Assembly: GCF_000378005.1 (NCBI RefSeq)
Contig: NZ_KB899040.1
Coordinates: forward strand, 919,645 to 983,644
Length of the DNA: 64,000 nucleotides
Direction of reading: 5' to 3'
Origin: Coprothermobacter platensis DSM 11748
Lineage (GTDB): Bacteria > Coprothermobacterota > Coprothermobacteria > Coprothermobacterales > Coprothermobacteraceae
The number at the start of each line of letters is the position of its first letter. The first letter of the stretch is position 1. The notes beneath the pieces are model-generated. The model did no database searches and had not been told where the DNA came from. It was given only the letters and a program-made list of their open reading frames with translations. Below are positions 1-3,582 of the stretch, piece after piece. The position numbers and the translations under genes are program-made.

Positions 1-748
1 TCGCAGCTCCTACAATAGAAGGAACATCCGGAGTTCCAGGGACAATCCTCGAGTAGGCTTGGCTACCGTAAATCGGTCCTTTTATAGGAACACCCTTCTT
101 CACCCACAATGCTGTTATGCCCTTGGGACCGTGTATCCTTTCAATGCTGGCTGTTAGTAAATCAGCCAATGGTGCAAAAGACAAGTTTGGCAAACGGCCC
201 AAACCCCACGTTACATCGTAATGTATTAGTGTATCTGGATTAGCCTCTTTAATAATTTTCGATATCTGTTCTACTGGCTGGATTGTTCCCACCATGTAGT
301 TAACGGCACCCATGGTGACTAAAACCGTATCGTTAGTCACACTCTTTCTGAGCACATCTAAGTCTACAAACCCATTCTTATCTACTGGAATATAAGTAAC
401 CTTTACCTTACCACTTTTCTCCAACTGCTTTACCATGTCCATAGTACTACCATGCTCGATTGCGCTTGTAATTATGTGAGGTGTTTCCAAACTTTTACCG
501 TTTATTGCACCCTGAACGGCTATGTTATTCGCCAAACTATGGCTTTGAGCAAAATGTACTTCGTCAGGTTTCCCTCCAAACAATTTTGCATAAGCCATTT
601 GGCTCTTCTCTATGGCTTCCGCAGCCGTGGTACCTGTGTAGGTAAACGAAGCAGGTGCCCAGTATTTTTCCGTCCACCAAGGAGTCATGGCATCTAAAAC
701 ATCTTTGTCTACATAAGTTGATCTGCAATGGTCAAAATATGCTCTCAC
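1..748 (-). CDS. NifS/IscS-like class V aminotransferase-fold protein, partial, PLP lysine replaced
   Basis: The reverse strand reads open from a GTG at 748 to the window edge (249 residues; the C-terminus is missing). The GTG follows directly on an in-frame TGA and has AAAGGAG upstream, so the start is well fixed. The fold is that of cysteine desulfurases: the SAIEH histidine that stacks on PLP and the aspartate of the HYD segment are present, followed by the GPKG segment. However, the usual SxHK signature before GPKG reads SIER, so the PLP lysine is Arg204 (codon at 137-139), the GATE phosphate-binding motif is SHSL, and the DAxQ glutamine is Trp. A normal desulfurase reaction is therefore doubtful. 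It lies 15 bases after a CstR-like repressor gene, so a sulfur-related role is plausible but inferred. The active-site cysteine region lies outside the window. Confidence 0.85.
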   Translation of the reverse strand, partial: MRAYFDHCRSTYVDKDVLDAMTPWWTEKYWAPASFTYTGTTAAEAIEKSQMAYAKLFGGKPDEVHFAQSHSLANNIAVQGAINGKSLETPHIITSAIEHGSTMDMVKQLEKSGKVKVTYIPVDKNGFVDLDVLRKSVTNDTVLVTMGAVNYMVGTIQPVEQISKIIKEANPDTLIHYDVTWGLGRLPNLSFAPLADLLTASIERIHGPKGITALWVKKGVPIKGPIYGSQAYSRIVPGTPDVPSIVGAA

Positions 749-763
749 TCATCAACACTCCTT

Positions 764-1027
764 TCACTTATTGGTTTTTTCTATCAAAACTTGCAATGCT
801 TGGCTCAGTTCTTCTTCACCCTTAGAAGGAAGGCACTTATCCATGCGGTCTTTTGCGATTAACGATACAGCTTTTTTCATCAACCCCTGAGCAGCAGCAA
901 TTTGCGTTGCTACCTGAGTACAACAAACGCCTTCATTTAACATGCGCTCCACGGCGTTAAGCTGTCCAATGGCCGTTTTCACCATCTGTAAGACATCTTG
1001 ACTGTATGGAGGATTCATATTATCCAT
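764..1027 (-). CDS. CsoR/CstR-family (DUF156) transcriptional repressor
   Basis: A small all-helical DUF156 repressor. Family members bind DNA as tetramers and release it on Cu(I), Ni(II), formaldehyde or persulfide. In copper-sensing CsoR the ligands are Cys36-His61-Cys65; here Cys35/Cys36 and Cys65 are kept but position 61 is Arg. Loss of the histidine with retention of both cysteines is the pattern of CstR persulfide sensors, and the downstream neighbour is NifS-like. An adjacent second cysteine (CC at 35-36) is unusual. The start was set at ATG 1027, with a weak GGTGAT ribosome site; GTG at 1033 and ATG at 1018 are alternatives. It probably autoregulates through the operator at 1048-1072. 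Copper or another metal remains possible. Confidence 0.9.
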   Translation of the reverse strand: MDNMNPPYSQDVLQMVKTAIGQLNAVERMLNEGVCCTQVATQIAAAQGLMKKAVSLIAKDRMDKCLPSKGEEELSQALQVLIEKTNK

Positions 1028-1045
1028 ATTCACATCACCAAGAAT

Positions 1046-1074
1046 ATTATACCCCCCTATGAGGGGGGTATAAA
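1046..1074 (-). promoter_or_regulatory. CsoR/CstR-type operator embedded in the promoter of the repressor operon
   Basis: A perfect inverted repeat, TATACCCCCC-N5-GGGGGGTATA, occupies 1048-1072. Read on the minus strand, a consensus TATAAT -10 box lies at 1046-1051 and a TTTATA -35-like box at 1069-1074, with exactly 17 bases between them, so the repeat fills the spacer. The A/T-flanked C-run/G-run design is typical of CsoR-family operators. Bound repressor would block RNA polymerase; the predicted transcript starts near 1039, giving a leader of about 12 bases. Confidence 0.88.
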
Positions 1075-1102: not shown

Positions 1103-1678
1103 TTAAGCGTTGAAACCTATTTCAAATGCCTTTATATTTCTTTCTTTATCTCTTGGAAGACTCTGTAACAAGGCATCCTTTATGCAATCTACAGGAAGTA
1201 TCGATTTAAGTACGCTGGCTGACTTACCTAACATAACACTATTAACAAAAATAGTGCTTCCAAGTTCCTTTGAAATGCTCGTAGCGTCAAACATGTAGCA
1301 CGGACCAAAAGATGACAGTGTTTTATGGATGTCCTCAATGGGTGGGTAAGTGGTTGAGCCCAAATTTGCCGACACAGGTACAATCTTGCCCTCATTTACT
1401 ACAAAAGTGGTACCTTTTCTTGCGTAGTTTATATACCTCAAAGACTCCAATGGTTCAAAAGCGATCAACAGATCAGCAGTTCCTTCAGGTACCGTAGACG
1501 CTATCCGGTTTTCAGATATTCTGACAAAACCTATAACAGATCCACCACGCTGCGCTAAGCCATGGATTTCTCCTACTGCTCCATAAAGTCCGTTAAGCAT
1601 GGCAGCTTTACCAAGCACTTTTGCTGCTGTGAGTATGCCTTGGCCCCCTACTCCGCTTAAAACAATGTTGTATACCAT
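1103..1678 (-). CDS. iorB: Indolepyruvate:ferredoxin oxidoreductase, beta subunit
   Basis: This is the small subunit (191 residues) of the enzyme that oxidatively decarboxylates aryl-pyruvates, from transaminated Trp, Phe and Tyr, to aryl-acyl-CoA with reduction of ferredoxin. It has the gamma-type POR domain with the N-terminal GVGGQGILTAAK motif and the GLAQRGGSV segment. The start is ATG 1678, eight bases after GAGG; an upstream GTG at 1687 overlaps that ribosome site. The gene overlaps the end of iorA by 22 bases, so translation is probably coupled. A cytosolic heterotetramer with IorA is expected. Its stop lies 30 bases before the -35 box of the next operon, and no strong terminator is visible between them. 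Confidence 0.95.
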   Translation of the reverse strand: MVYNIVLSGVGGQGILTAAKVLGKAAMLNGLYGAVGEIHGLAQRGGSVIGFVRISENRIASTVPEGTADLLIAFEPLESLRYINYARKGTTFVVNEGKIVPVSANLGSTTYPPIEDIHKTLSSFGPCYMFDATSISKELGSTIFVNSVMLGKSASVLKSILPVDCIKDALLQSLPRDKERNIKAFEIGFNA

Positions 1679-3582
1679 CGCTGCCACCTCTCTTTCACAT
1701 CATCTCTCATCACATTGAAATTCTTTGAGCCTTTTTCATCCATTTCGTAAATGGCGTTGTATGGACAAACTTGGGCACATGCACTACAACCAGCGCAAAG
1801 GTCTTCATCTATGTGTACTTTTTTCATTTCCCTATCGAAGACCAATGCTGGACAACCCAACATGTTGACGCAAATACGGCAACCAGTGCATCGTTCTTCA
1901 TCCACGGCATAAAGAGGAGCATGTTCTCCCCTTCTTGACAATTCTCTTTGTCTGATGAGTGCGCAAGGCTGTTTGGCAACGATAACTGCTACCGTTGCTT
2001 GATTTGCCTCTTTTATAGCTTCCTCTAAGGCACTTAAGTCATAAGGGTCTACTGACTTTACATAGTCTGCACCTAAACCTCTTGCAACGGTTTCGATATC
2101 CAGATGCGTTCCTTTATCACCATCCGCAACAATGCCCGTGGATGGATTTGGTTGATGACCTGTCATAGCAGTTATCCGATTATCCAAGACAATTAAGGTC
2201 ATTTTACTTTTGTTGTAAACAGCATTGACTAATGCAGGAAGCCCCGTATGGAAAAATGTGCTGTCACCTATGGTTGAAATGACACGCTGGTCTTGAGCTT
2301 TTGCCATACCACTCCCTAATCCAACGGAAGCACCCATGGCTATGCATGTATCTATTGCCTTAAGCGGATCCATAGCCCCCAATGTGTAGCAACCGATATC
2401 TGATGGTTTCACCGCTTTTCGCTCCAATTTTTTTATTGCATAGAAAACATTTCTATGAGAACAGCCTGGGCACAATACCGGCGGTCTCGGTGGCAGCTGA
2501 GGAACTTGACTTATGTCAGCATAAGTAATCTGCATCCCAGCCACACGTTCTAAGGCATTCCTCACTTTCCAATAACCAAGCTCATCTACACGAGGCAGAA
2601 CATCCTTACCATGAACAGGTATAGAAACACTTGCGTCAAAGAGTATAGCCTTAATCATTTCTTCAAGGAAAGGTTCCAACTCTTCCACGACCAAAATAAC
2701 ATCCACCGTTTTGGCAAACGCCAAAATCACCTCTTTATCCAAGGGGTAAACCATGTCTAATTTGAGTATGCTCAAGTCTAACCCAAGATCTTTTTGCGCT
2801 TCTTTTACGTACAAATACTCCACGCCTTGGGTAATTACACCAACTTTGCCAAAACCTTCGCGCTTGTTCAATTCATGAACACGGGCGAACTCCAGTGCTT
2901 TTTCTAATCGTTGTAATACAAGTGGGTGGTTCTTCTTCGCATTGGCAGGCAAACTAACAAACTTCGGTATGTCAGGCTTAAAAACTCCCTTCCGCACGTT
3001 TGGTAGTTTTACGTCATCACCAAGCGGACCAAGTGTAACAGGAGCACGTGTGTGGCTCACTCTCGTCGTCGTCCGCATTAAAACGGGAGTTCCAACGAAT
3101 TCACTTAGTTCGAATGAGATCCTTGTTAAATCTTTTGCTTCCTGAGGATCAGAAGGGACAATGACGGGAACTCCAGCAAATTTACCGTATATGCGGTTAT
3201 CCTGTTCATTCTGAGAACTCCACATTCCTGGATCATCAGCTGTTAATATTACTAAACCACCCAATACACCTTGGTATGCTATGGACATAAATGTATCCGA
3301 TGCAACATTTAAACCCACATGCTTCATGGTAGCCATGGCACGCAGATTGGACCATGAAAACGCAGTGGCCACTTCCAACGCAACTTTTTCATTAGTAGAA
3401 TATTCCACATAAACGCCCAGTTTCTTGGCGTATTTGCTCAGCGTTTCTGGAACTTCTGTGGAAGGTGTACCTGGATATGCACTAACGCAAGCAACGTTAG
3501 ACTCTAAAGCCCCCCGAGCAATAGCTTCATTGCCCAGGAGTAGTTCCGAGCCTGTTTCATCCAAAAATGGCATTAATTTCAC
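1657..3582 (-). CDS. iorA: Indolepyruvate:ferredoxin oxidoreductase, alpha subunit
   Basis: At 641 residues this is a full-length IorA. The N-terminal half carries the pyrimidine-binding POR domain (SAYPGTPSTEV near residue 35). The C-terminal half carries the TPP domain with PGCSHRNV, GCYTLGAMDPL and the metal-binding GDSTFFHTG. Two iron-sulfur motifs close the protein: CTGCRICVNMLGCP (565-578) and CAGCSACAQVCP (596-607). The first has the shortened spacing usual for IorA clusters. It starts at ATG 3582 behind GGAGGTGA and is followed by iorB with a 22-base overlap. Together they let the cell gain ATP and reduced ferredoxin from aromatic amino acids, in keeping with peptide fermentation. Confidence 0.97.
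   Translation of the reverse strand: MKLMPFLDETGSELLLGNEAIARGALESNVACVSAYPGTPSTEVPETLSKYAKKLGVYVEYSTNEKVALEVATAFSWSNLRAMATMKHVGLNVASDTFMSIAYQGVLGGLVILTADDPGMWSSQNEQDNRIYGKFAGVPVIVPSDPQEAKDLTRISFELSEFVGTPVLMRTTTRVSHTRAPVTLGPLGDDVKLPNVRKGVFKPDIPKFVSLPANAKKNHPLVLQRLEKALEFARVHELNKREGFGKVGVITQGVEYLYVKEAQKDLGLDLSILKLDMVYPLDKEVILAFAKTVDVILVVEELEPFLEEMIKAILFDASVSIPVHGKDVLPRVDELGYWKVRNALERVAGMQITYADISQVPQLPPRPPVLCPGCSHRNVFYAIKKLERKAVKPSDIGCYTLGAMDPLKAIDTCIAMGASVGLGSGMAKAQDQRVISTIGDSTFFHTGLPALVNAVYNKSKMTLIVLDNRITAMTGHQPNPSTGIVADGDKGTHLDIETVARGLGADYVKSVDPYDLSALEEAIKEANQATVAVIVAKQPCALIRQRELSRRGEHAPLYAVDEERCTGCRICVNMLGCPALVFDREMKKVHIDEDLCAGCSACAQVCPYNAIYEMDEKGSKNFNVMRDDVKERWQRWYTTLF

Follow-up and report, generated by a model that had tools for sequence, protein, structure and literature searches.

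In Coprothermobacter platensis DSM 11748, the window (the whole 64,000-nucleotide stretch of DNA that was analysed) begins within an operon encoding an IscS homologue, IscS*, in which the lysine that holds pyridoxal phosphate (PLP) is replaced by arginine. The reading favoured here, with reasonable though limited confidence, is that this dead IscS remains the partner of an IscU-SufT fusion in what appears to be the only recognised Fe-S assembly system of its bacterial order, where clusters would be made from sulfide with Cys328 as a ligand. Since an IscS without the lysine and most of the PLP pocket belongs to the sole system found, cells of this thermophilic order probably build Fe-S clusters straight from sulfide. 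More tentatively, and with doubt slightly outweighing belief, the order may make all of its Fe-S clusters from inorganic sulfide via an IscS without PLP chemistry, as the end point of an IscU-SufT-linked subfamily that has been drifting away from desulfuration. If this were true, the conserved job of IscS would be docking and provision of the loop Cys, not cysteine cleavage; the data suggest that these two functions make up the core that IscS retains, and that cells living without oxygen and with ample sulfide can do without cysteine cleavage.

IscS* starts with GTG at position 748 and overruns position 1 of the window (Table 1); with the flank read from the genome, the complete ORF (G000:C1:919211-920392, equivalent to L002:5567-6748) encodes 393 amino acids. 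The protein is homologous to IscS/NifS over its full length (TIGR03402, 329.7 bits across residues 4-386; Pfam PF00266, 167 bits) and scores under every NCBIfam equivalog cut-off. Among solved structures, the nearest are those of A. fulgidus IscS (4EB5, 4EB7 and 4HVK, with Asp at the Lys; E=1e-78) and its Lys-bearing form 4R5F. An AlphaFold2 model made from two homologues was too poor to interpret (pLDDT 49).

Table 1. Position of the operon and of the replaced active-site residues of IscS*. Plain numbers are window positions; E. coli IscS numbering is used for the residues replaced.
Feature	Position	Strand	Basis	Remark
Window	G000:C1:919645-983644			In a 1.42 Mb genome
Lys-less IscS (IscS*), 5' part, residues 1-249	1..748	-	ORF and flanking genome sequence
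Arg204, codon AGG	137..139	-	Alignment	Replaces PLP Schiff-base Lys (Lys206 of E. coli IscS)
Trp181	206..208	-	Alignment	Replaces Gln183 (sister family: Arg); DAxQ becomes DVTW
Tyr151	296..298	-	Alignment	Replaces active-site Asn155; NNE becomes NYM
QSHSL, residues 68-72	533..547	-	Alignment	Replaces phosphate-binding SG(A/G)TE motif (GATE)
CsoR-family repressor, CstR type	764..1033	-	Pfam PF02583; four-species alignment	First gene of the operon
Perfect palindrome TATACCCCCCTATGAGGGGGGTATA	1048..1072	.	Kept in four species	CsoR/CstR-type putative operator in operon promoter
IscU-SufT fusion gene	L002:4921-5559			Beyond window, next gene after IscS*
Flavodoxin gene	L002:4410-4931			Beyond window, after IscU-SufT

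The first-pass annotation, made from the window alone, had placed an arginine on the PLP lysine and described changed GATE and DAxQ motifs, and these observations hold: SIERIHGPKG of IscS* aligns with SSNKIYGPKG and SAHKLYGPKG, anchored by GPKG, so that Arg204 falls exactly on the SxHK lysine. It had also described the PLP-stacking His and the Asp as remaining, and His99 and Asp178 are indeed present in IscS*, but in the second family of the order (f2) Ala takes the place of His99. The catalytic loop, which lay outside the window, is whole in the complete gene (DTGSACANPFLEANH), and its Cys328 (GSAC) is invariant in six sequences. In E. coli IscS, a change at His104, Asp180, Gln183, Lys206 or Cys328 each abolishes activity (PMC9978102). 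The equivalents of Asn155, Gln183, Lys206 and the GATE Glu are missing throughout the six sequences of the order, position 71, a PLP-contacting Thr, varies among Ser, Ala, Thr and Val, and family f2 has also lost the equivalents of His104 and Ser203. Among 55 positions that are nearly invariant in Lys-bearing IscS, the IscS* clade retains GSAC, Asp178, Arg354 and Arg381 and is without the Lys, the Gln, the Asn-Glu and the GATE Glu. Because residues indispensable in E. coli IscS are lost, it is very improbable, as judged from the sequence, that IscS* acts as a cysteine desulfurase.

The IscS* orthologues have 83, 82, 72, 51 and 49% identity and come from two families and three genera. All six sequences of the order have Arg at position 204, encoded by three different codons (AGG, AGA and CGC), and selection on the gene is purifying (pN 0.05-0.18 vs. 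pS 0.63-0.87). Sequencing error, chance and gene decay are excluded by this conservation of Arg through differing codons in intact orthologues with pN far below pS. The motif losses, taken alone, would fit a decaying or mis-sequenced gene, a reading made negligible by the six intact orthologues, the strong purifying selection and the retention of Arg through synonymous codon changes. The purposeful pseudoenzyme envisaged in the first-pass annotation is supported by the same conservation and selection, together with the loss of the Lys206 and Gln183 equivalents essential in E. coli IscS; for its alternative suggestion, a different cofactor, no evidence was found. Across 386 genomes, the score falls from 757 to 314 bits at the next best homologues, so IscS* is a distinct clade, and it was seen in this order only.

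Lys is missing in 24 of 135 IscS/NifS-type homologues, which were chosen by similarity from a sample without archaeal genomes, such that this fraction is not a prevalence; the loop Cys is present in 135/135. The 24 sequences have R (8), Q (7), D (4), T (2), V, S or H at the Lys position. In the best tree, calculated with the motif columns removed, Lys changed four times (bootstrap range 4-4) and IscS* is split from A. fulgidus IscS. A single clade of all Lys-less IscS is rejected (p 0.018); however, joining the IscS* clade with A. fulgidus IscS (p 0.24) is not rejected, nor is shared ancestry with a large bacterial Lys-less clade (p 0.15), so the count of four losses belongs to the best tree only. 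Of the 17 other genomes with a Lys-less IscS, at least 10 also have a Lys-bearing copy, as read from their loci. Three bacterial IscS of family f71 (L073, L079, L117) have Asp at the lysine (SSND(I/M)) and group with A. fulgidus IscS, and their genomes also carry a Lys-bearing copy.

The erosion of the pocket extends beyond IscS*. A branch with support 97/78 sets apart 19 rows, of which 18 are IscS genes that adjoin IscU-SufT; none of the other 58 rows is such a gene. These 18 partners, which are kin and therefore not independent counts, keep Asn155 in 1, Gln183 in 6, Lys in 11 and Cys in all 18, whereas the corresponding numbers for 100 Lys-bearing IscS without the fusion are 97, 99, 100 and 100. 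Pocket erosion is thus a trait of the IscU-SufT-linked subfamily, with the IscS* clade as its extreme. Eight IscS (L063, L076, L080, L072, L069, L102, L134 and L159) keep Lys with Asn155 gone, and often Gln183 or His104 as well; all except L080 adjoin IscU-SufT, and they may be desulfurases whose activity is changed or lost. At two other loci (L193 and L196, in G227 and G085), IscU-SufT lies behind an Rrf2/IscR-like regulator with no adjacent IscS gene.

A search for SUFBD found none in nine genomes of the phylum and was positive in 14/14 controls. Each of the six genomes with IscS* has a single NifU_N, which is always the IscU-SufT gene, and no second IscU was found in this order; G002, 78% complete, has neither IscS* nor NifU_N. 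The order also yielded no Lys-bearing IscS-type copy, and no desulfidase of the CyuA/serine-dehydratase type was found. In G004, G005 and G006 (95, 93 and 87% complete), no class-V aminotransferase apart from IscS* scored above 34 bits, where intact desulfurase-like proteins of the phylum score 285-330 bits. Assembly completeness was 68-99% overall and 87-99% in the cases that count. There is no SUF scaffold, no second IscU and, in three genomes, no other desulfurase, so the PLP-dead IscS would serve the sole recognised Fe-S assembly system in the order, "recognised" being the scope of the searches, which would miss scaffolds of unknown type. Coprothermobacter itself has a second, Lys-bearing desulfurase, of the EF2568 type (TIGR01977, above cut-off; G000:C1:94094-95191, L003), followed by a YedF-like gene; the genome carries SelA, SelB and SelD, and the pair probably acts in selenium or general sulfur mobilisation. 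In another order of the phylum (f3), neither SUFBD nor NifU_N was found in G007 and G008, both with Lys-bearing desulfurases, which leaves both, G008 being 93% complete, without any recognised Fe-S scaffold.

In the first family of the order (f1), the operon runs from a CsoR/CstR-like repressor through IscS* and the IscU-SufT fusion to a flavodoxin, and IscS* and IscU-SufT are also paired in f2. When fused IscU proteins are aligned, the IscU part of the fusion has all three Cys, the Asp and LPPVK; it matches PF01592 with 146 bits and falls short of the NCBIfam equivalog cut-offs. The C-terminal domain matches PF01883 (SufT/DUF59/CIA2) above cut-off, here and in relatives. Under the favoured reading, IscS* would form no PLP aldimine and desulfurate no cysteine; its dimer would dock two IscU domains, and Cys328 on the mobile loop could serve as a transient fourth ligand at the IscU site, comparable to Archaeoglobus IscS-IscU. 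A [2Fe-2S] cluster would then be assembled from Fe2+ and free sulfide, the presumed source, and the fused SufT-like domain would subsequently help to pass it on. The flavodoxin may be the electron supplier, and the CstR-like repressor would raise expression upon reactive sulfur. Several findings run against this reading. Arg354, Asp178 and, in one family, His99 persist, and the pocket may still bind something; the EF2568-type desulfurase could supply sulfur in Coprothermobacter; and 11/18 IscU-SufT partners keep Lys, therefore the fusion does not need a dead IscS.

The main rival is a persulfide relay, in which Cys328 would take sulfane sulfur from another donor (the EF2568-type desulfurase, a YedF/TusA-like or rhodanese protein, or polysulfide) and hand it to IscU, with the flavodoxin as reductant. 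The full conservation of the mobile Cys loop is consistent with such a relay, as are the flavodoxin in the f1 operon, the position of the EF2568-type desulfurase next to YedF, and the response of CstR-type sensors to persulfide in other bacteria (PMC5016687). However, G004, G005 and G006 keep IscS* with no other desulfurase found, and the f2 neighbourhood holds no candidate relay gene; we regard the relay as unlikely. IscS* could instead still work with PLP but by a changed chemistry, perhaps with Arg204 and Arg354 binding another substrate and PLP held non-covalently. Asp178 and Arg354 are retained, sister lineages have Lys in a changed pocket, and the E. coli IscS variant K206A is inactive yet retains some PLP, with absorbance near 430 nm (PMC9978102); but the joint disappearance of the GATE segment, Gln183 and Asn155, and in f2 of the His104 and Ser203 equivalents too, renders this quite improbable. 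A regulatory decoy that restrains IscU and takes no part in assembly would suit a gene sharing its operon with IscU and a repressor of sulfur-sensing type, but it would leave the sole scaffold without a positive partner and has no need of an invariant Cys loop, and we give it very little credence.

In A. fulgidus IscS, Lys is replaced by Asp and desulfurase activity is lacking (Marinoni 2012, Yamanaka 2013 and Pagnier 2014, as described in PMC7585200 and PMC9769115); the same sources name its Cys321 as a ligand of the [2Fe-2S] cluster in IscU. IscS* follows this pattern, with Lys replaced, the Cys loop kept and IscU adjacent, and the likeness extends to full-length homology, an IscU with three Cys and an anaerobic thermophile as host. 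However, A. fulgidus IscS has Asp where IscS* has Arg, keeps GATE, His and NNE, has Leu at the position of Arg354, and is drawn with PLP in structure 4EB5 (PMC9769115). SmsCB occurs in A. fulgidus as well (PMC12192291), whereas the Coprothermobacter phylum is without a SUF-type scaffold, and the IscU of IscS*, unlike that of A. fulgidus, is fused to SufT. IscS1 of Methanosarcina acetivorans, likewise Lys-less and part of a two-gene iscSU module (MIS, MisS-MisU; PMC7585200), coexists with two more, Lys-bearing, IscS and with SufBC, whereas IscS* stands alone with its fused partner. MIS is defined as an IscS-IscU pair only, with a working desulfurase; the operon described here has a Lys-less IscS, a fused IscU, a regulator and a flavodoxin. 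Known SufT proteins are free-standing apart from one reported Nfu-SufT fusion (PMC4982691), and no mention of an IscU-SufT fusion was found in the literature searched. Methanogens have been shown, or proposed, to take the sulfur from sulfide and do without a desulfurase (PMC7585200, PMC12192291). What is new relative to known Lys-less IscS is the Arg, the far more eroded pocket, the fused partner and the status of sole system. Archaea with an Archaeoglobus-type dead IscS also own SUF-type scaffolds or active IscS copies, which has made it hard to judge whether dead IscS really makes clusters in the cell. IscS* carries more weight than those cases because it is alone in its order; since it seems to be the sole option there and some of these bacteria are in culture, the role of a dead IscS becomes directly testable.

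In four species, Cys36/37 and Cys67 of the repressor are conserved and the metal-site His is missing, a pattern that we take to be that of CstR, and the likeness includes a G-tract palindromic operator. Known CstR proteins control sulfide-oxidation genes, unlike the repressor here, which sits on an Fe-S assembly operon. The palindrome in the repressor promoter is perfect over 25 bp (TATACCCCCC-TATGA-GGGGGGTATA), and 0/100 shuffles contained one of this kind. The CstR-type Cys pair and the conserved CsoR-family operator argue for sulfur-responsive control, as predicted in the first-pass annotation. Genome-wide, the operator pattern matched as often as a reversed control, so the claim extends to its conservation in place and not to a wider regulon. 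A second CsoR-type palindrome, ATACCC-TATA-GGGTAT (L002:3598-3613), lies in the promoter of a neighbouring protein disulfide oxidoreductase gene and at the same place in G001, G003 and G004, four species in all, which suggests a small CstR regulon, although across the genome the matches are just as many as in the control. Directly upstream of the operon and in the same orientation are iorA/iorB (indolepyruvate ferredoxin oxidoreductase; window positions 1103-3582), a placement common to every family f1 genome examined.
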